NCBI GenBank assembly: GCA_002779995.1
Contig: PEWX01000069.1
Location: 1 to 64,000 of the forward strand
Direction of reading: 5' to 3'
Length of the DNA: 64,000 nucleotides
Source: Piscirickettsiaceae bacterium CG07_land_8_20_14_0_80_44_28
Lineage (GTDB): Bacteria > Pseudomonadota > Gammaproteobacteria > Thiomicrospirales > Thiomicrospiraceae
Shown: positions 49,886 through 64,000 of the stretch, piece after piece
Layout of the letters: each line of letters opens with the position of its first letter
Numbering within the stretch: the first letter of the stretch is position 1
Made by a program: the position numbers and the translations under genes
The notes under the pieces: generated by a model
What the model was told of the DNA's origin: nothing
Database searches by the model: none
The model's input: only the letters and a program-made list of their open reading frames with translations

Positions 49886-50972
49886 CTTGAATTCGCATAA
49901 CAAGTGCAATTTACTTGTAAGAAAAAAGGCCAACTGAAATAGAATGCTAATTTTCTTACCACAGGAAATTGCAATGAACTATAAACAGCTGACCAACGGT
50001 GAACGATACCAAATAAAAGCCTATTTGAAAATAGGTTTATCGATTAAAGAGATTGCACAGTATCTAGGTCGCCATCCCTCAACAATTGGTCGAGAAATAA
50101 AGCGAAATACAGGGTTAAGAGGATACCGCCCTAAGCAGGCCAATCAGTTCGCTGTAGAGCGAAGATATGCAGCTGAAAAAGCGATTAAACTCACTTCGGC
50201 CATTAAGGACCAGATAAAGAAATTAATTCGACTAGAACTCAGTCCAGAGCAGATCTGCGACTATCTCGAAAAACACGGAGTTGTAAAGTTACATCATGAA
50301 ACAATCTATCGCATGGTATTAACGGATAAAAAGCAAAAAGGTACACTGTATCAGCACCTTAGGCATTTACATAAAACCCATAGAAAGCGGTATGGGAGTT
50401 ATGACCGACGGGGAAGGATCAAAAATGCCACTAGCATTGAAGAGCGCCCAAAGATTGTCGATGACAAAGCCAGGATTGGTGACTGGGAAGGTGACACCAT
50501 TATTGGTAAAGACCGAAAAAGCGCCATTTACACACTGGTAGAAAGAAAAACTCTCTATACCATTATCGTTAAACTCACTGGCAAGAATGCCAAAGATCTT
50601 GCCGATAAAGCCATAAAAGTCCTCAAACCGATGGCAGAGAAGATTCACACCATCACCTATGACAATGGTTTAGAATTTGCCGAACACGAACATATGGCAG
50701 AAGAATTAAACGCAAAGATCTACTTTGCACACCCATACTCCTCTTGGGAAAGAGGGATAAATGAGAATACCAACGGCCTGATTCGTCAGTATTTTCCAAA
50801 AGGAACTGACTTCAATCTAGTCACCCAAGAACAAATCGATTTTGTAATGAACCGGCTCAACAGCCGTCCCCGAAAAACACGGGGAGGAAAACAACCTGTT
50901 GAGCTATTTTTAGGAAAAGCTGTAGACTTATTAGCGGCTTAAATACAATTGCACTTAATATGCGAATTCAAG
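49886..50972. mobile_element. IS30-family insertion sequence (copy 2)
   Basis: 1087 bases bounded by 26-base inverted repeats: CTTGAATTCGCATA, two variable bases, AAGTGCAATT at 49886-49911 and inverted at 50947-50972. AAA on both sides fits a 3-base target duplication, which is supported because excision with it restores the interrupted frame. Confidence 0.93.
49974..50942 (+). CDS. IS30-family transposase (copy 2)
   Basis: 322 residues from ATG 49974 (MNYKQLTNGERYQIKAYL), apparently intact. The helix-turn-helix region is followed by the DDE core: GDWEGDTIIGK, TYDNGLEFAEHE and WERGINENTNGLIRQYFPKGTD. An upstream in-frame Met inside the element adds ten residues without a better ribosome site. 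Confidence 0.96.
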   Translation: MNYKQLTNGERYQIKAYLKIGLSIKEIAQYLGRHPSTIGREIKRNTGLRGYRPKQANQFAVERRYAAEKAIKLTSAIKDQIKKLIRLELSPEQICDYLEKHGVVKLHHETIYRMVLTDKKQKGTLYQHLRHLHKTHRKRYGSYDRRGRIKNATSIEERPKIVDDKARIGDWEGDTIIGKDRKSAIYTLVERKTLYTIIVKLTGKNAKDLADKAIKVLKPMAEKIHTITYDNGLEFAEHEHMAEELNAKIYFAHPYSSWERGINENTNGLIRQYFPKGTDFNLVTQEQIDFVMNRLNSRPRKTRGGKQPVELFLGKAVDLLAA

Positions 50973-51514
50973 AAACCAAAATAAAGTACAAAATTCAAAA
51001 ACATTATTGTAGAAAATAAAATAGCATCACTATAATCATTTGCGACAATTGAAGAAAACTTTATAAGCTCTCCAGAGCTTAGCACTGCGAAGACACCAAA
51101 AAAAGCGGTTGCCAATAATTTTGGAATAAAAAAAATGCTTAAAAAAGCTATCAAAATGTTGCTATTCTTTCGTTTTAGGTCGTATGCTTTTAAAACATTG
51201 CCGCGCTCCATATAAAAGCGAAAAGCTTCCCTTAGCATGTTTTGGGGTTGTTTTTTTGTTTTTGCTTGTTCAAAGAGCTTAGGGTTATTACTTAATATGT
51301 CACCAACAGTTTTCTCTCTATTATAGATTTCTTCATCTTCTGATAATTCGAACTCGATTTTATTGCCTTTTAATCCGCCGGTTACTATTTTTTCAAAAAA
51401 ACGACGCATCTTCTTGTGGTTATCGGTTTTCCCTTCAAGCTTTATATCAGGATTATTTTTATAAAAGCTTAAAAGTTCAGATATAGTTTCAGAATTATGA
51501 TTCAAATTGTTCAT
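50973..51514 (-). pseudogene. N-terminal half of the IS30-split membrane protein of the Mod-helicase-nuclease operon
   Basis: Hydrophilic N-terminus of about 110 residues, then two membrane segments (about 122-146 and 158-178), ending VLYFGF at the insertion. The last residues of the surviving frame (NSHIKCNCI) come from the insertion sequence. ATG 51514 overlaps the nuclease gene by 20 bases, so it was the fourth gene of the operon. With the downstream half it would have four membrane helices. Function unknown. Confidence 0.82.
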
Positions 51515-52634
51515 GCGCTTCACCAAAGTAACCGTCATCAGAGTTTGCAGTATTAACAGGGCTATGATGCTGTCCTTTCATTAAATTATTAATTAAAGGT
51601 GCATAAGAACTGTTCCCAAGCCCAAATAACTTAATTTTTTTTATTTCTTCAATGTCAACTTTGCGCACTCCTCCCTTCGTGTCCAAAATAACAACTAAGT
51701 TTTTTTTAATATAGTCAACGGACTCTAAGAATGAATCACGTTCAAAAACCACTTCAAATACAATATTGATTGCTGATTCTTCTGGAATCCCAAAAAAAAT
51801 CAGTGTCTTGAAAAGCAACCCTATATATCCACCTGGGAAATCTGCTTCTTCATCCGAGTTTATAGGTTCAGATTGCGCTATAAACAAGCGTTTGGCGGTT
51901 TTTTCACACGAACTGACCTCATCAGCCAAAATCCAATTAATAAGGCCTTGATATTTTTTTTCCTCAAAAAATATTCCAAACCGTTCATACTTAGCCTTCG
52001 TTTTAAAGCTGGGATTCCAGCCAACAATACTTGGAAAACTTAGCGTTTCCATTTTACTGGTTGAAACAAAACAACCTCGGTAACGCCAGTTTTCAAATTC
52101 GCCCCCGATCTGGCTATTTATTTCAGCAATAGAAAGCGTATTTGAAAGGTACTTATAGTGGCTAAATCCTTTATCATTCATTTCAGACTTCAAGCCTTTT
52201 GTATCCACTAGCGTTACAACTCCAGAACTTTTACACTTGACCTTAAAAAAAATAGCAAAATCAGGGTAATAGGTATCATGTTCACCATATCTCAAGCCAA
52301 TACCTGTCTTTGGCAAATTTCTTAACAGGAAAACTTCATAATTAGTGTTTTCATGTTGATAAGGAATATGAGACCCAATAAACTTTTTTGCGTTTTCTCT
52401 GGTTACGCCAAGGGTTTGTACAAAGTTAATGATAAATTGCGTTTCGCTTTTATCTAAAGTGCCTGGACGGCCTTTACAACATTGGCTGTTATCAATTGGC
52501 CAAGGGTTTTGAATTGCACCGGGAATGTTATAAAACGCATCACCATCTTTGTCTTGTACGATATCCAGAATATGATCAAAATTTTCTGTTTTACAGTCAT
52601 TGTCGAATTGACTAAATAAATCACCCTGTGACAT
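51495..52634 (-). CDS. PD-(D/E)xK-like nuclease protein of a Type III-like system
   Basis: 379 residues from ATG 52634, which shares a base with the helicase stop (TAATG) and follows GGAGAAAG. YYPDFAIFF (Pro124-Asp125) and VTLVDTKG (Asp144, Lys146) form a PD-x18-DxK arrangement with the expected spacing of a restriction nuclease core. In ordinary Type III Res proteins this domain is fused to the helicase C-terminus. No methylase or helicase motifs are present. Confidence 0.75.
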   Translation of the reverse strand: MSQGDLFSQFDNDCKTENFDHILDIVQDKDGDAFYNIPGAIQNPWPIDNSQCCKGRPGTLDKSETQFIINFVQTLGVTRENAKKFIGSHIPYQHENTNYEVFLLRNLPKTGIGLRYGEHDTYYPDFAIFFKVKCKSSGVVTLVDTKGLKSEMNDKGFSHYKYLSNTLSIAEINSQIGGEFENWRYRGCFVSTSKMETLSFPSIVGWNPSFKTKAKYERFGIFFEEKKYQGLINWILADEVSSCEKTAKRLFIAQSEPINSDEEADFPGGYIGLLFKTLIFFGIPEESAINIVFEVVFERDSFLESVDYIKKNLVVILDTKGGVRKVDIEEIKKIKLFGLGNSSYAPLINNLMKGQHHSPVNTANSDDGYFGEAHEQFES

Positions 52635-55042
52635 TAAACTTTCTCCACTGATAACACTGATGAGTCTAAGCACTCAGGAATTGGGTCAAGTTGATAATGA
52701 CTCTGTGCTCTTTCATCTTTTTTATATTTTGCTGTTACCGCACTGGTAAGAATTTGCAATGCAAGTTTTTGCATACGCTCTAAATCCTCAAGGTTCTGGA
52801 CAGATAAATGCCGAGAATAGCCAATAATTTCATATCGTCCACTTTCAAAAAACTGACTTATGGTTGGTTTTGAAAATATTAAATTCCACCAGCCCTTTAT
52901 TTGGCGCAATTCACATAAATCAAAATAAAGTTGTTCAATTTTAATCAAAGGAAAAATATTCGCTTTGAACAAAGGGGTAATGTCTTCACCTTCCGACAGA
53001 ATCCGTTCGGTTTGTAACTCACCAGACTCATTGGCATCCGTTTGAGTACCTGAATAAATTAAGGATTTTTTAACTACGTTAATAGCAGAAAACCAATTGT
53101 CATTCAGAACACATTGATAATCTGTTTTTGGTCGCGTGAGCAACTTAGGTTGTGGCATAGGCTGTAGAGGCTCAATGATGTTTTGCTCTACCACTTTGGG
53201 AGACTCTAATGAGATGCCCTGTTTTTCAAGTGCATTAATAAACGTATCCAGCCAGCCTGCACCTGCACCAAAAATCAATGCTGTCTGCAATAGCTGATAA
53301 CCACCTACATTGATTAAACGCTTACCTAATCCCTCAACCCCTTTTAAACGCACCATTCGCCCAAACATTTGCACAATCAATGCACCTTCAGATGTTCCCA
53401 GGCGCATAATCGAAAGCGTGCTTGCACGATAATTATTCCAACCTTCCGCAAAGCGCCGTGAGCCCATTAAAATATTAATGGTCGAGTGTTGCGCAGAAAT
53501 CTCATCAAACAACGAATTTGAGTCAATATCGTCTCCAAATGGAATCTTTTCTTTTTCCGCGAATGCTTTATAGCCTTCTAAAGTACCGATATTCACCACA
53601 CCGAAATACTGTACGCTTTCGCCATTAAAAACGCCCAAACCCAACTCTTTATTGGCCGTGCTTTTGATTTGACGCAAAATGAGATTAGGTGTTTGATTAG
53701 CCGAAACCCCAAAAACATCGTGATAAATTCTTTTCACCAAATCATCTAAATCTTTAGATTGTTTTTTAATTAACTGTAATGTTTCAGCAGATAAACTTTG
53801 CTGCAAATCTTGATCGGTTAACAACGCTTTAAGGTTTTGCTTAAAATTTATTGGTTCAAATAGTTTTCGAATAAACAAAATCCCTTTTTGCATATCAGAG
53901 CTCAAATCAGGATCAGAGCTATTTGCCGTTAGCCCCAACATCACCCACAAAGGCTTTTCGACTTGCCATTCAGGTGAAAAATTAGCGGCTTTTTTCTTTT
54001 CAAATAAAACCAATTGATGCCAATATCCCAGTAACGAAGCGAATAAAGCCGTTTCATACTCTTGTTTATGGCGGTTTTGAATTTTTGGCTGTTTGCCATA
54101 GCCATCAGCATAAAATTTATCGTAAGCATAGTCATAAGCCACGCTTTTGGCATATTGGCTCAGTACGTTTTGATTTTGCGCCACTTGACCCAGCGTTGCA
54201 GAAAACTCAACAATCATGCCTTTTTTCGGGTTGGTCGAATCTGCGTGTAATCCCGCTAATTTCAACTGCACCTTTTTCCACTGACTTTCGACTTTATCGG
54301 TGTTGCCGGACTGGCCCTTATGCCCCTCATCAACCAGCACCAAAAAACGCCCTTTAAAGTCATCTATCGGTAAGGTTTTAGCATTTTTTCCGGTTACTTG
54401 TCGGTCAACAAACTTTGAAAACTCACTGACCAAAATGTCATTTGATGACAAGCCACGCGGGTTTCCTGTTGGGTTTTCACCAGAATATAAAATGATATTT
54501 TTATCTTTTAAGCCGACTAATTCAGATGCGTGTTGCTGTGATAAATTGGCATTGGGTGAGAGTAAAAAAATCGCATCAAACTTTTGTCCAAATTGTGCTA
54601 ACAATTCAATGGTCACTTGCAAAACCAGCGTTTTACCCGATGCGGTGGCCATCCAAAAAGCCAGCATATTCAAATCATTCTCACCAAAAGAAAACGACTC
54701 CGCTTTAAAGCCATCAGCAAACGCATTCAACTCCATCAAGTATTCAGCTTGCGAAAGATTTTCAATCCAATACAAATGCAAAGCCGCCATCAGTAAGGCA
54801 ATATATTGATAGTAGCGTGGTGTAAATCCCACTTTAGCAATTGCGGTATCTAAAGCATCGAGTACAACGGTTTGTTGTGAAGTGGTTAATCCGCGTAATA
54901 ACTGAGAAGCTGGCAGACGAAATTCGCCTTTAATACCCTCGAACTCTTTGAGCAAGGACTCCAACCGTTTAATATCGAGTTGTGCTTTATGGCATATGAA
55001 CTCTTTTAAAACCAGGTTTTCATGCAAGAGTGGCTGTGCCAT
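52634..55042 (-). CDS. Type III restriction-type SF2 helicase (Res without nuclease domain)
   Basis: An 802-residue DEAD/DEAH-family translocase. Walker A MATASGKT, Walker B VDEGHKG, motif III FSATLG and motif VI QMFGRMVRLKG are complete. It is shorter than typical Res (about 970) because the nuclease domain is absent and is encoded by the next gene. The start is immediately after the mod stop, with GGAGCG inside the mod end. Expected role: ATP-dependent translocation or sensing on unmodified DNA. Confidence 0.9.
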   Translation of the reverse strand: MAQPLLHENLVLKEFICHKAQLDIKRLESLLKEFEGIKGEFRLPASQLLRGLTTSQQTVVLDALDTAIAKVGFTPRYYQYIALLMAALHLYWIENLSQAEYLMELNAFADGFKAESFSFGENDLNMLAFWMATASGKTLVLQVTIELLAQFGQKFDAIFLLSPNANLSQQHASELVGLKDKNIILYSGENPTGNPRGLSSNDILVSEFSKFVDRQVTGKNAKTLPIDDFKGRFLVLVDEGHKGQSGNTDKVESQWKKVQLKLAGLHADSTNPKKGMIVEFSATLGQVAQNQNVLSQYAKSVAYDYAYDKFYADGYGKQPKIQNRHKQEYETALFASLLGYWHQLVLFEKKKAANFSPEWQVEKPLWVMLGLTANSSDPDLSSDMQKGILFIRKLFEPINFKQNLKALLTDQDLQQSLSAETLQLIKKQSKDLDDLVKRIYHDVFGVSANQTPNLILRQIKSTANKELGLGVFNGESVQYFGVVNIGTLEGYKAFAEKEKIPFGDDIDSNSLFDEISAQHSTINILMGSRRFAEGWNNYRASTLSIMRLGTSEGALIVQMFGRMVRLKGVEGLGKRLINVGGYQLLQTALIFGAGAGWLDTFINALEKQGISLESPKVVEQNIIEPLQPMPQPKLLTRPKTDYQCVLNDNWFSAINVVKKSLIYSGTQTDANESGELQTERILSEGEDITPLFKANIFPLIKIEQLYFDLCELRQIKGWWNLIFSKPTISQFFESGRYEIIGYSRHLSVQNLEDLERMQKLALQILTSAVTAKYKKDERAQSHYQLDPIPECLDSSVLSVEKV

Positions 55043-57997
55043 TTATCGCTCCAAAAACACGTGTTCAAGTGACTTTAATTCGGCATCCATATTCAGCGCC
55101 AACTCACCGCACTGATTGCTATAAACCACATCCGCGGGGTGTTTTTCGCAAATAGATTTTACCCAGACTGAATCTTGTTTAGCACAATCACGCCATGCCA
55201 CGGTCACACTTTGTTGCGTGCGATTGGTTTGACCAGTGATTATCACGCCTTTGCCGTCCAAATACAGCTTATCGACCTTTAGACCGAGCAGGTAAATCAA
55301 GCTTTCAACCATGTCCACTTCAGTGACTTCAATATCTACGCCTTTAACAATATTCAAAGTGTGGTTAAAAGCAGAGTCAAAGCTATTCTCTTTTATCTGA
55401 CAGGATGCATCTTCCAGCAAATAACGCATGGAAGCAGCAGCATCAAACGGCAACGATAAATCATTAGGCTCAGAGATATTTTCTAACGAATCTTCATATT
55501 GTTCTAAACGGTGATAGCGGGTGAAAAAGCCGTGACCTTCTAAGTTATTTGGTTTGCCATCTGTCCAGTGCAAACCAGCGGTTAGTTTTTTGATTCTCGG
55601 TAACAATAATTGATGAAAATAGTTAGCAGTTTCAACCATTAAAAACTTCAAGTTAATTTTTAAATCGGAGTTACTACGAAGTACCGCATCAACCGTTGTA
55701 CCACTTCCTCCAAAAAAATCGAGAACATAATCACCATTAACAGTATTGATTCCAATTAGCCTTTGGATTAATTGAACGGGTTTAGGGTTGTCAAAAAGGT
55801 CTTTTCCAAAATAAGACTTTAAGAGCGAGCTACCTTTGCTTGTTGTGCCATCATTTTCCAATACATTCGAATCAGCAATTAAAGTTCTGGGTTTTTTCCC
55901 CTTTGGTAATCTTTGTTTAAAATGTACAGAATATCCATCATCATTTTTTACAAACCTAATTTCGCCATTCTTTTTGTCTTCTAAAAACCTTTTCTTACTT
56001 CTCAACCAGCTTATTTTGTTGCCGTCTTTATCAAACTCCAGCACGCTTCCGTCGGGACATTCGATAGGATAGTATTGTTTTCCCGACTTTCTTTTAAAGG
56101 TATCCCAATAGAATTTTGAAATATCATCTTCTTCTTTATATCTATCCATGTATTCAGGGGAATATGTTTCAAATAGTTTTTCCAAGCTGTGAATATTCTT
56201 CGCATAAGCAAAAACAGTTTCATGTTCAATTGCGAAATATCTTGAATCGTTGCCCCCCCCTTTCTTCTTTTTCCATATTAAACTTGTTAACCTGTTATTT
56301 TTGTCAAAGACTAAATCCTTGGCCTGTTTAAGGTTCTGTTCTTCATTTTTGTCAATAGATGTGTATAACAAAGCATCCGCAGATAGAAGCGACCTGCATT
56401 TAGAGAGTCTATTATGAATCATTGTTATCCAAGTAGAACTCATATAACCATCTTTATAAGGAAAACCATCATCACCCGTGTTATAAGGCGGATCAATATA
56501 GGTGCATTTAACCTGCTCCCGATACTTCTCTTGCATTAAATTTAACGCTTGCCAGTTATCAGAATGAAATAATGTGCCGTCAAGCAAATCATCAAGTGCT
56601 TGATTAGTATTCTCAGCAATAGCAGTAAGCATTTGCCATTTAAAATCATTGGAAAAATGTTTCGTATCCACTGGCAAAGGCAAATAGAGTGTTTCTGCAT
56701 TTTGATCGTCTTTAATCTGTACAGACTCGATGGAGCCATATTCGCCAAGATTTAAATCGCGCCATTCCTGGATTTGTTTGTCACTGGCTAGAATGTCAGC
56801 TATTAAATGCTCGCCACCGTATTCAGCTAATTTATTGAGACTGATAATGTAATTGGTTTCAATCACTAGCTTTTTTCTTTCCCAGAGGGTTTTCTGAAAG
56901 TCCTCCAACTCGCCTAAAAACGCATTAATTTTTTCACCGATTTGCTGAATGGCTTTGGCGGCTTTAAAAGTTTTTGCAAGCGTAGATTCATCTGCCAGCA
57001 TTGCATCCAGGTGCATGACATTGTTTTTAATAAAAAAGGCTAAATTGGTATCCAGTTCTTCTTTTAGGTTTTGATGGATAAAAAAATCGGCTTGATTGCG
57101 TTTGATGTATTTGTTCAGAATCGTGCGGATTCGGCTTTCATCCGTACCGGTCTGTTGGGCGATTTCTTGGTGTTTTAGCGGTTTCTCAATATCCCGTGTT
57201 GCGCCTTTTTTAACGTATTCCAAGGTTAATACCCAGGCCTGGTCTTTTTTAACCAATGAGCCAAACTTGTACATGGCCTTTTTGTCAGGATTGCTTTCTT
57301 TTTTGAGCTTTTCCAAAGTTTCTTTAAGTTGTTCAGCATCCACTCGCACAATCAAATCCGAACCGTCTGATAATTTGGCGTGATAATCGCTGTATAGATC
57401 GCCGGACTTGATGTAGTACATACCCTCGGTTGCCCAGTGGAATTCTACATCTTCACCACTGGTTTGAACAAAACGCTTGGTGCTGTCGTTATTCCTGGTG
57501 AAAGTTCGCTGGGTAATAAAATCGCCATCGGCATAGTTTTGTGAATAAAACTCATAGAGTTTAGAAAAGATAAATGACTTTTTAGACTGTGTTTGCTGCG
57601 TTCCTTGCCATGCTTCATAAAGATTTAAAATCGGCTCGTAGAGCTTTTTTTCTTTATTACTCGAAACATTGGCATATTTACTTTTTACCGATGACATTGC
57701 ACTGTCAATCGGAAGCGATTGATCAATTTCAAATTCGTTTAGCTCTTCTCGGATTTCCTTTTCGAAATCGTTGCCTTCAAAATTTTGTTCAGTGGTAGCT
57801 TCATCAATAATTTTCTGAATTGTTCCGGGCTGATAACCTGTATCAGTCATGTCACCTAAAAAGAGTTTGATTTTTTGATTATGGTTGTGTATGACTCGAT
57901 AAATACCAAAATCTAAACCTACAGCATCTTTAAGCTGAAAGATTTCAGTCATTAACTCAATAAATTTTTGCTCTTGTTGATCTTCAGATTGAGCCAT
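55043..57997 (-). CDS. Type III-like site-specific DNA adenine methyltransferase (Mod)
   Basis: A 984-residue beta-class N6-adenine methyltransferase: catalytic DPPYNTG at about 502-508 precedes the SAM motif DFFGGSGTT at about 760-768. An unusually long N-terminal half (about 450 residues) precedes the catalytic core and includes a likely helix-turn-helix (EIAQQTGTDESRIRTILNKY). An eight-G run on the coding strand (56253-56260) encodes Gly580-582, upstream of the SAM motif. A CCAGGCCTGG core at 57233-57242 encodes DQAW. GGAGA precedes ATG 57997. First gene of the operon. Confidence 0.92.
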   Translation of the reverse strand: MAQSEDQQEQKFIELMTEIFQLKDAVGLDFGIYRVIHNHNQKIKLFLGDMTDTGYQPGTIQKIIDEATTEQNFEGNDFEKEIREELNEFEIDQSLPIDSAMSSVKSKYANVSSNKEKKLYEPILNLYEAWQGTQQTQSKKSFIFSKLYEFYSQNYADGDFITQRTFTRNNDSTKRFVQTSGEDVEFHWATEGMYYIKSGDLYSDYHAKLSDGSDLIVRVDAEQLKETLEKLKKESNPDKKAMYKFGSLVKKDQAWVLTLEYVKKGATRDIEKPLKHQEIAQQTGTDESRIRTILNKYIKRNQADFFIHQNLKEELDTNLAFFIKNNVMHLDAMLADESTLAKTFKAAKAIQQIGEKINAFLGELEDFQKTLWERKKLVIETNYIISLNKLAEYGGEHLIADILASDKQIQEWRDLNLGEYGSIESVQIKDDQNAETLYLPLPVDTKHFSNDFKWQMLTAIAENTNQALDDLLDGTLFHSDNWQALNLMQEKYREQVKCTYIDPPYNTGDDGFPYKDGYMSSTWITMIHNRLSKCRSLLSADALLYTSIDKNEEQNLKQAKDLVFDKNNRLTSLIWKKKKGGGNDSRYFAIEHETVFAYAKNIHSLEKLFETYSPEYMDRYKEEDDISKFYWDTFKRKSGKQYYPIECPDGSVLEFDKDGNKISWLRSKKRFLEDKKNGEIRFVKNDDGYSVHFKQRLPKGKKPRTLIADSNVLENDGTTSKGSSLLKSYFGKDLFDNPKPVQLIQRLIGINTVNGDYVLDFFGGSGTTVDAVLRSNSDLKINLKFLMVETANYFHQLLLPRIKKLTAGLHWTDGKPNNLEGHGFFTRYHRLEQYEDSLENISEPNDLSLPFDAAASMRYLLEDASCQIKENSFDSAFNHTLNIVKGVDIEVTEVDMVESLIYLLGLKVDKLYLDGKGVIITGQTNRTQQSVTVAWRDCAKQDSVWVKSICEKHPADVVYSNQCGELALNMDAELKSLEHVFLER
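56253..56260. repeat. Homopolymeric C8/G8 tract in mod
   Basis: Eight C on the plus strand, eight G in the mod frame, inside KKKKGGGND. Slippage here would shift the frame before the SAM-binding motif. G/C runs of seven occur elsewhere in the window, so the tract alone does not prove phase variation. Confidence 0.55.
57233..57242. repeat. CCAGGCCTGG core inside mod
   Basis: Only the 10-base core is perfect; the right side continues TCTTTTTT like the backbone copies. It is the single copy seen in the island and, as in prmC, is read as DQAW. Confidence 0.7.
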
Positions 57998-59581: not shown

Positions 59582-59640
59582 CTATGGTTAAAATACAAAA
59601 TAGATCGGTTATTAACCCAGGTTGACTTAAAGGAGCCATG

Positions 59641-60315
59641 ATGCAAGCGATTGATCCGGATTCAGTAACAATCAATATTGGTGAAGCACTCGGCAGTCTT
59701 AGTGTAATTGAAGTAACGTCCTGGAAAAGAGGCATAAGCTGGATTCTGCATGAACTCAAAAACATTCGTCAAGAATACCCCGTATGGGAACTACCTAGAT
59801 TCACATTAGGGTTTATTGAGAAAGTATGTAAAGAATCCGGAACACAACTGGGTATTCCTCAGGAAGTATCGGATGCGATTAAACGATTTGAAGACCAATT
59901 CTACGATCATTGCTGTGCCGCTCTCTGGTTTGTCAGCCGTTCCTATGAAGCCAAACAACTGCTAATGGATATGCCCATCATCTTCTGGTGTGTATTGGAA
60001 TATGCTGAAAAAAATGAATTAGATACCGATGAAGTGTTTGCTTTGTTTTGTGAAAAACGCAGTCACATCCTAAAGCTCGTCGGATTATCAGGTACTAAAT
60101 CTCAAATCAAAGCGCTACGAAAACTCCACTTTCCAAAACAATTTGAATCAAAACACTTAGATCAACTCATCAAATTCTTTGAACTGTTTACCCCTCAACA
60201 AATAGGGCGTCTACAGTATCTCGACATGAATGTTGTTACAAAATTAAATAGCGACCCTAGTCTCATAAATACAAATGGGTATGCCGATCAGGTTCAGAAA
60301 GTCCTAGCTGGATAA
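59641..60315 (+). CDS. Unknown protein divergent from the WYL regulator
   Basis: About 224 residues, mostly helical with several Trp and Cys residues (FYDHCCAALWFVSRSYEAKQ, PIIFWCVLEYAEKN). No family recognised. AGGAG at 59631-59635 fits ATG 59641 better than ATG 59638. It is followed by a 190-base gap before the next operon. Being opposite a WYL regulator it is probably controlled by it. Confidence 0.7.
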   Translation: MQAIDPDSVTINIGEALGSLSVIEVTSWKRGISWILHELKNIRQEYPVWELPRFTLGFIEKVCKESGTQLGIPQEVSDAIKRFEDQFYDHCCAALWFVSRSYEAKQLLMDMPIIFWCVLEYAEKNELDTDEVFALFCEKRSHILKLVGLSGTKSQIKALRKLHFPKQFESKHLDQLIKFFELFTPQQIGRLQYLDMNVVTKLNSDPSLINTNGYADQVQKVLAG

Positions 60316-60506: not shown

Positions 60507-62204
60507 ATGTCAGGTATAAACCAGTTCATAATTGAAAATCTTTCAGAATGTACAACAATCAAGTCAAAGTTATATATTTCTCCTGAAATTCCTCAAAATA
60601 TTATTGAAAAATTTGTCAAGGCAATTGAATTTGATGGTGACTCAAACTCAATTTTAGGTGTTATTGATAGTTCTGCTCTAGGCATATCAAAGGGAACTGT
60701 ACTCACAGGAAAAAGATTTATTTTTAAAGATGCATTAAAAAGTGCTTATTCAGTTATGTATTCGGATATTTCTGGAGCTGAAGTTGAAGAAACAGTAAAT
60801 GAAAAAGGGAAAGTGAATAAGTTTTTGCATATTAATCTTAAAGAGGATTATAGGTATACAATTAGCGATACTTCCGAAATTCACTATGAAAATATAGCTG
60901 GATTACTAAATAAATTGGTTTCAGATTTTGATCTTTATGAAGAGCAAGGCCAATTAACTCCTATCGATCAGTTAAGTGATGAGTTAAAAAAAGCTTACGT
61001 CAAGATAATTATTAACATGACCTATTCAGATGATGGTGAAGTTGATCAAAAAGAGTTTTCTGAAGTTATGCAACTGATGACTAGAATTGATCTCGTATCA
61101 GATTCCAGAGTAGATGTCAGGAACTATTTAGTTTCTAGTGAAGGTCTTTTGACAACTGAAGAGTTGATAAGGACTTTGGATGAAAATACGCCAGATGGAA
61201 TGAGAAAATCCATTCACCTTTCTCTTGTTAAAGACTTGATTAGTATTTATGCTTCGACAAAGTCTGAGGTTAAAGCAGATTTTGATTTTTTGAAAGAAGC
61301 CCAAGTATATTTGGATATAACAGATGATCAAGTTGATTTAGCAGTTGATGCAATAAAGCAAGATTATAAGATTCTTAATAGATCATATACTGATGACCAA
61401 ATTACAAAAAGTATAAAAGAATTGTCATCTAAAGCTGCGGCTGTAGGTATTCCGCTTGGAGCAATATACTTATCTGGTTCTGTGATTGGGATGTCAGCAG
61501 CGGGTATGACTTCTGGTTTAGCAACGATTGGTATGGGAGGAGTTTTAGGCTTATCAAGTATGGCTACAGGTATTGGTGCGGCAGTGATTCTTGGTGTTGT
61601 AGCTTACAAAGGTGTTAAATATTTAACAAACTCTGGTACTGAGGAAGGTGATAAGAGAAGAGAATTGATGTTACAAAATGTAATTAGGCTTAATCAAAAA
61701 ACGTTAAATTTAATTATTCAGGATATTAATGAGTTAGTTAAGCGGTTAAATATCGCTCTTAAAGATGCAGCTGTCACAAAAGAACAGGTTCAAATGCTGG
61801 GGAAAAAATTGGCAGTTTTTATTGGCGCTTCAGAAGAGCTCTCAAAGAAAAATCAAAGAGACTCAGCAAGCCAAGCGAGATTATCTTGTCCTGAATTCTT
61901 AGATGTTGAGCGACTAAAGGTAATCTCTAAAGAAGGAATTGATAAAAAACCTTATAACTTTGTATTAAGTCATTATGAAGAAAATGTAGTTGTAGAGAAA
62001 GATGAACAAGGAGGTGAAGTTGAAAAGCATGTTTTACGGCTCAGAAAAGATCTGTCTACCGAGAAATTAGTGAGCCTTGGTGATGTTTTAACTTCATTGG
62101 GTTACAACGAAACCAGTAGTGCAGTTAAAAGTAAGGCCGAGAACTTAAAGAAAAAAGCATCGGAAGAGGCAAAAAATAGATTTGGAGGCTTTTTCTCAAA
62201 ATGA
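60507..62204 (+). CDS. Unknown protein: PH-like, TerB-like and glycine-rich membrane regions
   Basis: 565 residues. Residues about 40-130 (GISKGTVLTGKRFIFK, YSDISGAEVEE) look like a bacterial pleckstrin-homology fold. About 150-285 is TerB-like helical (VKIIINMTYSDDGEVDQKEF). 308-374 is a glycine-rich hydrophobic span able to form membrane hairpins, followed by a coiled region and a Lys-rich C-terminus. A good frame with a ribosome site (AAAGGGATG-like) before the ATG. It overlaps the next gene by 4 bases. Domain calls are from visual pattern only. Confidence 0.75.
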   Translation: MSGINQFIIENLSECTTIKSKLYISPEIPQNIIEKFVKAIEFDGDSNSILGVIDSSALGISKGTVLTGKRFIFKDALKSAYSVMYSDISGAEVEETVNEKGKVNKFLHINLKEDYRYTISDTSEIHYENIAGLLNKLVSDFDLYEEQGQLTPIDQLSDELKKAYVKIIINMTYSDDGEVDQKEFSEVMQLMTRIDLVSDSRVDVRNYLVSSEGLLTTEELIRTLDENTPDGMRKSIHLSLVKDLISIYASTKSEVKADFDFLKEAQVYLDITDDQVDLAVDAIKQDYKILNRSYTDDQITKSIKELSSKAAAVGIPLGAIYLSGSVIGMSAAGMTSGLATIGMGGVLGLSSMATGIGAAVILGVVAYKGVKYLTNSGTEEGDKRRELMLQNVIRLNQKTLNLIIQDINELVKRLNIALKDAAVTKEQVQMLGKKLAVFIGASEELSKKNQRDSASQARLSCPEFLDVERLKVISKEGIDKKPYNFVLSHYEENVVVEKDEQGGEVEKHVLRLRKDLSTEKLVSLGDVLTSLGYNETSSAVKSKAENLKKKASEEAKNRFGGFFSK

Positions 62205-63712
62205 CGGAAGAAAAAAGTAGACATTATGATGCTGGATCAGCACTCCTAGTCCAAAAGCACCAGGTTGACACTCTTGACAGGAAAACACTTGAAGTAGCTT
62301 CAGGAGTAAGCTCCTTAGAGCAGTTGCAGAGAGAAACTATTGATGAATTTAATGCACTAAATGATCAATTAGACTCTTTGTTGGCTTTAAAAGGAGTTGA
62401 ATTTTCAGAAGCGAGTGCTGAAATGTCTATCGATGTTGAGTTATTGCTTGATGAGTCAGAAAGAAAAGTTCGATCTGAATTCCATTCCATTGAAGAGGTA
62501 GGCCAAGTCGATTATTCAGAAGACATGGACTGGGATGGCTATATAAACTCAGTTCATAAGTACGCTGAAGAGAATGGTATTGATTTATCGAAGGATCCTT
62601 TTGAGCAATTGATGTCAGATAGTCAGAGGGTTGAGCTTGAAAAACGAATTGACGAAGACTTGACGTATAAAAATGCTAATTGTGATGAATATGATTACAT
62701 GATTGCTGGTACCTGCGGCATGATTGGTGGGTTAGTTGATATTTTTTTTGTAGGAATTCCTGGAGACAGCAGCTTTATAAATAAGGGTGCAGATGCATTT
62801 GTTGATAAAAGCGTTCAGGGTTTTGCTTCTTTAATGGGGTGGGAAGGGGCCAGAGAAGGCTCTGATTCTACAAAAAGTGCTATTGGATATTTAGAACGAA
62901 AATATAAAGTAAATTATGATCAACGCTCTTCGGTGGATTCTCAGGGTAAAGTGAAGTTGAGTACGATAAATCATCATATTAAAAGCTTAGCTCATTCCCC
63001 TGATATTGTAGGTCTCTTTTTTTCCATACTTAGCCAGTTTACAAACACTGCGCATTTTGTAGAGGGTGGTCAGTTGATAGCTATTGATACTGATGATTTT
63101 GAGCTTAAGGGTCATAATTTTCCAGCAAAGGTTTTTTGCGGTTTCGTGAATTGGCTCGGACATCTCTTTTCTGATACGGCAGGTTCCTCAGGTGCACAAG
63201 GAAGAGGATCAGGTATCCCAATTCCCTTCTACTCGCTTCTTCAGTTTTTAGACGTTGGAAAGTTTGGTAAACATGATGATAGTTTTGCTAAAGTAGCTGT
63301 AAAAGTTTTTGAACAGGGGTATGACCTCAGGCACGGAATTGCAATGTCCATACCTGTTTTAATTACGGAGTTGCTAACTCGAATTTCTTGGACAGTAAAG
63401 CAACGTTACTATCATGAAAAGGAATGGGCTGATTGTATGCCAAGCACGAGCAATCCAGAGTTACGAAGAATGTTATTGGTGTCCCATGGAACTCTTTGTT
63501 TAATGGATGGTATCGATGCAGGTCTGAGGTCGGGGGGGAATATTGTTAGTTTTATGTTAAGGGCAAACTTAATTGCTTGGGGACGCTTTGGCGTTTCTGC
63601 TGTAAAAGAGGTTAATGCTTGGTACTTGACTGGAAAACTTGATGTTGAAGCGGCTAATGAAGAGCTCGATAAAGAGTATGAGCGATTATTAGGTAATGTT
63701 CGTGTTAATTAA
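62201..63712 (+). CDS. Unknown 503-residue protein of the same operon
   Basis: ATG 62201 overlaps the upstream stop (ATGA), so the pair is translationally coupled. An acidic helical N-terminus (about 1-155) precedes a glycine-rich hydrophobic stretch (YMIAGTCGMIGGLVDIFFVG, about 166-185) and a C-terminal part with several hydrophobic segments (HGIAMSIPVLITELLTRISW, FMLRANLIAWGRFGVSAV). No family recognised. A G7 run lies at 63532-63538. Confidence 0.72.
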   Translation: MTEEKSRHYDAGSALLVQKHQVDTLDRKTLEVASGVSSLEQLQRETIDEFNALNDQLDSLLALKGVEFSEASAEMSIDVELLLDESERKVRSEFHSIEEVGQVDYSEDMDWDGYINSVHKYAEENGIDLSKDPFEQLMSDSQRVELEKRIDEDLTYKNANCDEYDYMIAGTCGMIGGLVDIFFVGIPGDSSFINKGADAFVDKSVQGFASLMGWEGAREGSDSTKSAIGYLERKYKVNYDQRSSVDSQGKVKLSTINHHIKSLAHSPDIVGLFFSILSQFTNTAHFVEGGQLIAIDTDDFELKGHNFPAKVFCGFVNWLGHLFSDTAGSSGAQGRGSGIPIPFYSLLQFLDVGKFGKHDDSFAKVAVKVFEQGYDLRHGIAMSIPVLITELLTRISWTVKQRYYHEKEWADCMPSTSNPELRRMLLVSHGTLCLMDGIDAGLRSGGNIVSFMLRANLIAWGRFGVSAVKEVNAWYLTGKLDVEAANEELDKEYERLLGNVRVN

Positions 63713-63746
63713 TACACGAACATCGAAAGACTGATTGGAGAAAAAA

Positions 63747-64000
63747 GTGATTGCTGATATTCATGATAAAGCTTTAGAGATATATCTGGCTCATTCAAAA
63801 GCTGTACAAGGTTTTACATTTGCTACAAGAGTAAGAGATACGGCAAATAGAATGTCTAAAGACGTTTGGTTTCAAGGATCAAATTATGTCTTTACCTCTC
63901 CATATAAGGCTGGCGACAAACATAGTAAAACTAAAACCATTGGATTTGAGATTACTGAACATGTTGTTCTCAATAGTTCATTTGGTATGCAAAATGGTAT
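63747..64000 (+). CDS. Third gene of the operon, cut by the window end (partial)
   Basis: GTG 63747 with GGAG at 63737-63740 starts VIADIHDKALEIYLAHSKAV, 34 bases after the previous stop, and stays open for 84 codons to the edge. TFATRVRDTANRMSKDVWFQ and NYVFTSPYKAGDKHSKTKTI follow. Not recognised. Its last visible codons (GMQNG) overlap the 18-base copy of the integrase-leader repeat. Confidence 0.6.
   Translation, partial: MIADIHDKALEIYLAHSKAVQGFTFATRVRDTANRMSKDVWFQGSNYVFTSPYKAGDKHSKTKTIGFEITEHVVLNSSFGMQNG
63983..64000 (+). repeat. Second copy of the integrase-leader 18-mer
   Basis: TGGTATGCAAAATGGTAT, identical to 34901-34918 and in the same orientation, running off the window edge. It is inside an open frame, so it may be coincidence or the right flank of the island. 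Confidence 0.45.

Follow-up and report, generated by a model that had tools for sequence, protein, structure and literature searches.

Bunzi is reportedly one of the defence systems in Millman et al. 2022, and the family is said to be named from a defence system that was tested experimentally in that work. Its components are listed elsewhere as BnzA and BnzB (PMC11206119), one review enters it under TerB with reference to Millman et al. (PMC10952713), and a review from 2026 places it among the systems whose mechanism is unknown (PMC12926258). PDC-M09 is a phage defence candidate in PADLOC, and in Bacillota a BnzB homologue (E 1.5e-100) precedes a protein that matches its component PDC-M09A. 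Shango, which consists of TerB, a helicase and an ATPase, is described without BnzB.

The window analysed here is a stretch of 64,000 nucleotides (positions 1-64000 of contig C80, which extends to 65385) from a genome of 2.28 Mb in 122 contigs. Near its end are two plus-strand genes with ATG starts, bnzA (60507..62204, 565 aa) and bnzB (62201..63712, 503 aa), which share 4 bases with the sequence ATGA. In PADLOC, BnzA matches PDLC03833 with E 1.6e-170 (residues 2-563 against profile positions 2-543 of 544) and BnzB matches PDLC03834 with E 1.3e-199 (residues 3-498 against 3-502 of 504), which establishes the family of both proteins and the intactness of both genes. Since both are full-length family members, the two frames stand far above chance. 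The locus is very probably a complete two-gene Bunzi anti-phage system in a defence island of low GC, and we put the probability of this at about 0.85, a figure that covers its identity and anatomy. Nothing of substance separates it from Bunzi as catalogued: both proteins match over their full length, the gene order is the same, the genes overlap or abut as they do elsewhere, and identity of BnzB to the nearest relative compared does not exceed about 61%. It is an ordinary further copy of a catalogued system, and what it adds to Bunzi is modest.

A first-pass annotation of this DNA had described an uncharacterised operon of three genes that matched no defence system. The absence of a match was a mistake, as PADLOC has the pair as Bunzi; it does fit with Pfam and NCBIfam, where neither BnzA nor BnzB reaches the cut-off of any family. 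The defence role that it proposed was well founded, the pair being Bunzi, and its assignment of domains in BnzA also stands, whereas the third gene does not belong to the conserved unit. The two intact genes, their 4-base overlap and the neighbours had been seen correctly, but not the unit of three.

The GC content drops from a level of about 0.44 and is mostly 0.34-0.40 in the bnzAB part of the window. On one side are, as had been noted, a WYL/WCX regulator and a Type III-like operon, the latter read from the minus strand. The Type III-like set (window 50942-57997, minus strand) comprises a methyltransferase of 984 aa, a helicase of 802 aa and a separate gene of 392 aa with a weak hint of an endonuclease domain (PF19778, E 0.17), and the restriction subunit appears to be split across two genes. 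Divergent from the WYL regulator is a 225-aa gene of no family (59638-60315, plus strand), which has a single relative, 29% identical and from the same family of organisms, in 273 other genomes of the class. This gene was rejected as a part of Bunzi for lack of a relative at any other Bunzi locus, and so was the WYL gene, which gave only weak matches (E 3e-6 to 2e-4) at four loci, all of them holders of BnzB operons of type II or III (see below). Sigma-70-like sites around bnzA are not more frequent than in shuffled sequence, and a direct DNA search of complete E. coli genomes gave no match to the locus, as is expected at such divergence.

BnzA combines several modules, and its AlphaFold model, built from 30 alignment rows, has a mean pLDDT of 79.6 and is poor only at residues 335-380. 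The beta-rich N-terminus, at about residues 1-145 (60507..60941), is a PH-like domain: the model matches the bacterial PH domains 3dcx and 3hsa in Foldseek (probability 0.97-1.00, target TM 0.55-0.61, E 0.03-0.3), an output that gives no query range, the beta-rich part of the model being residues 49-120. It is followed by a TerB-like helical domain at about residues 155-295 (60969..61391), of which residues 175-275 match the TerB alignment (PF05099) in hhalign with the BnzA alignment as query (E 1.7e-5 over 97 columns, probability 79%). The single-sequence Pfam scan missed TerB in the window's BnzA, and it is visible only by profile-profile comparison; the same hhalign procedure gave no match to TerB for BnzB or for the 370-aa partner protein described below. 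Residues 309-374 (61431..61628) form a clearly hydrophobic stretch rich in Gly and Ala, probably a membrane hairpin, which holds most of the invariant columns of BnzA, many of them glycines, and where AlphaFold confidence is low. Long helices or a coiled coil are predicted at residues 383-459 (61653..61883). The PH-like fold, the TerB-like domain and the glycine-rich membrane span had all been suggested in the first-pass annotation, and each is borne out here.

The model of BnzB, from 48 alignment rows, has a mean pLDDT of 88.6 and consists of an N-terminal helix (residues 5-64) followed by a helical core. Several hydrophobic segments had been noted in this protein, but there is one strong stretch, at residues 166-193 (Kyte-Doolittle above 1.3). 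It lies within a conserved core (residues 162-342, 62684..63226) with a set of residues, D165, D180, D240, H258, H265, H321, S324 and D325, that is invariant in 86/86 homologues, distant plasmid and phage rows included. Neither profile nor fold searches named an enzyme family for BnzB; no known structure was found by sequence, and no solved or viral structure is alike by fold in Foldseek (best E 0.31 and 0.02, with very low TM-scores). The membrane-bound metal-dependent hydrolases of the YdjM/PF04307 type show a superficial likeness in their motifs (HH..S..H, GH..SD and G.P.PF), but profile-profile comparison of the 48- and 86-row BnzB alignments and of sub-regions with the YdjM alignment gave no homology (hhalign probability <1%, local E 0.15-0.27), and BnzB was rejected as a hydrolase of that kind.

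The pair is conserved far beyond this genome. Contigs were scanned with the BnzB alignment and the best 80 of 103 loci kept; of these, 32 are of the fused type (L015-L044, L053 and L068), and BnzA adjoins BnzB in 32/32. Gene neighbourhoods had been proposed as a check on the operon, and they show that genes 1 and 2 do co-occur, but gene 3 does not. The BnzA gene is upstream in 31 of the 32, and L033, which is cut by a contig end, retains the C-terminus of BnzA; in most of these loci the two genes share a few bases or are separated by no more than about 50. The fused type spans four phyla (Pseudomonadota, Campylobacterota, Thermodesulfobacteriota and Bacillota). In the BnzB tree the window groups with rows from Thiorhodovibrio and Marinospirillum (support 100), inside a set from the first three of these phyla, and the further fused loci are from Bacillota. 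The occurrence is sporadic, with a single strong BnzB match across 369 genomes of the class, namely that of the window itself, and two full matches to BnzA in 398 genomes of the phylum.

Some loci depart from the common arrangement. In the nearest relative of the window (L016:4604-5353, minus strand, and L015) the match to BnzA is confined to its membrane and C-terminal half, and a gene with an LRAT domain (PF04970, E 1.6e-12) stands on the opposite strand in place of the PH/TerB half. Genes with one or two PH-like domains of the BnzA kind (E 1e-13 to 3e-22) are found near Bunzi in Pseudomonas and Desulfovibrio (L019:7667-9235, L021:7706-9259 and L040:1050-2207, the last on the minus strand), and these are possibly duplicated sensors. 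An Acetobacter plasmid (L013:4677-7854) has a shortened bnzA close to an IS30 transposase, and the 11-kb stretch contains no annotated bnzB.

Behind bnzB in the window is a third frame on the same strand, from TTG 63735 or GTG 63747 to the window edge at 64000, where it is cut; its stop was found on the contig at 64025, which makes it 92-96 aa long. The better start is the GTG, which stands behind GGAG and 34 bases past bnzB, so that the spacing given in the first-pass annotation (a 4-base overlap, then 34 bases) is right, while the TTG is 22 bases away. A strong hairpin terminator of 12 pairs with a run of T follows at 64073-64100. A required small partner, e.g. an antitoxin or inhibitor, might be placed in just this way, on the same strand, 22-34 bases downstream, with a plausible ribosome site and a terminator just beyond, but no third gene is conserved across the other Bunzi loci, and this frame is without a relative at those loci, elsewhere in its own genome, in 273 other genomes of the class, or in the plasmids, phages and viral contigs searched; Pfam, NCBIfam and PHROGs are blank as well. 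A system of three genes is for these reasons very improbable. As it has no relatives in anything searched, the third frame was rejected as a component of Bunzi, and the earlier claim that it belongs to a conserved operon is not upheld; it is an incidental downstream frame of this genome, a putative gene. Even a little less credible is that the pair is a housekeeping or plasmid-maintenance membrane operon with no link to defence. Conjugative plasmids do carry distant homologues, once in the vicinity of ter genes, but a sporadic spread of 1 strong match in 369 genomes of the class and 2 in 398 of the phylum, the carriage by phages as well as plasmids, and a family name that reportedly derives from an experimentally tested defence system all count against such a role.

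How the two proteins would work together can be sketched, with some hesitation, from their anatomy. The Gly-rich hairpin may anchor BnzA to the inner membrane, where its PH/TerB half would pick up a signal of infection in the cytoplasm. BnzA might then activate BnzB, located at the same membrane, and BnzB would act through a putative active site that is rich in Asp and His and probably binds metal, so that the phage is stopped or the infected cell killed. This scheme, a membrane-anchored sensor and a membrane effector with an Asp/His-rich active site, is tentative, and we would hold it clearly below an even chance. Slightly more doubtful is that BnzB, within the same Bunzi identity, is no enzyme, and that BnzA and BnzB together make a pore or channel in the membrane by which the infected cell is depolarised, the conserved acidic and His residues lining the channel or binding ions. 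The Gly-rich hydrophobic stretch is after all the most conserved part of BnzA, and the hydrophobic helix of BnzB bears conserved Asp residues; against this, Foldseek found no channel fold, and invariant sets of His, Ser and Asp more typically mark catalytic or metal sites.

Homologues of BnzB occur with four sets of partners. Set I is the fused BnzA, as in the window. In set II, BnzB is followed by a Gly-rich membrane protein of roughly 370 aa that matches PADLOC PDC-M09A (E 1.4e-70), and a branch with support 100 sets its 32 rows apart from the rest of the BnzB tree. Set III has a Gly-rich membrane protein and in many loci also a stand-alone TerB, which reaches PF05099 above cut-off in all three proteins scanned (6e-7, 5.5e-6 and 1.4e-8), and a small Cys-rich protein with a weak resemblance to CxxCxxCC. 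At L045, L049, L050, L052, L054-L058 and L064 the BnzB homologue is accompanied by a TerB gene, a gene for a Gly-rich membrane protein and, at some of these loci, a small Cys-rich gene. The parts of BnzA appear in these relatives as separate genes next to BnzB, which supports the modular reading of BnzA given above. Profiles link the membrane partners of sets II and III weakly to BnzA, and a common ancestry with its membrane part is possible. Membrane parts resembling that of BnzA also gave weak PADLOC matches to LeoBC/LeoC (E 4e-4 to 4e-3), which were not counted as homology, because the matching region is rich in Gly and Ala. Set IV is found on plasmids of the IncHI type, and the two examined, L008:6718-9467 (IncHI2A) and L011:6403-9152 (IncHI1B), have genes for a trypsin-like protease, a membrane protein of 165 aa that matches positions 301-414 of the BnzA profile (E 1.6e-6), and a BnzB homologue (E 1.3e-53); in L008 these genes are about 8 kb from terD. 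With tblastn, relatives of BnzB were found in 491 plasmid records, mostly conjugative and mostly from Enterobacteriaceae. A Streptococcus phage (L010:4010-6005) carries a distant homologue of BnzB; a sigma-70-region-4 gene and an HTH_16 gene precede it, an EsxA-like gene follows, and no BnzA-like partner was seen there.

The window differs from the other described systems. The PDC-M09A partner has neither a PH nor a TerB module and its gene order is reversed, whereas the window has a fused BnzA, which in PADLOC has no match to PDC-M09A at E 0.1; no PDC-M09A partner of about 300-370 aa is present. What it has in common with Shango goes no further than a TerB-type domain within a defence operon. 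The TerB-helicase-ATPase trio is absent: the adjacent genes are BnzB, WYL and the Type III-like restriction genes, and the nearby helicase is one of the last. It is conceivable, if rather unlikely, that membrane defence operons with BnzB at their core make up a wider superfamily that has so far gone unrecognised. BnzB would then be a metal-dependent membrane enzyme of new fold, and the sensor parts that go with it (PH, TerB, Gly-rich membrane protein, small CxxCxxCC protein and trypsin-like protease) would be swapped, fused or split by lineage, with Bunzi and PDC-M09 at one end of the range and, at the other, the operons beside ter genes on IncHI2 resistance plasmids.

The comparison across Bunzi yields testable handles, namely the invariant Asp/His set of BnzB and the natural operons in which TerB and membrane genes are separate, and these are useful since the 2026 review still lists the mechanism of Bunzi as unknown. 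Operons of the ter type are common on IncHI2-type plasmids and have long been linked to phage inhibition, and for that reason the distant pair of BnzB and membrane protein on IncHI2 plasmids may merit interest as phage defence.
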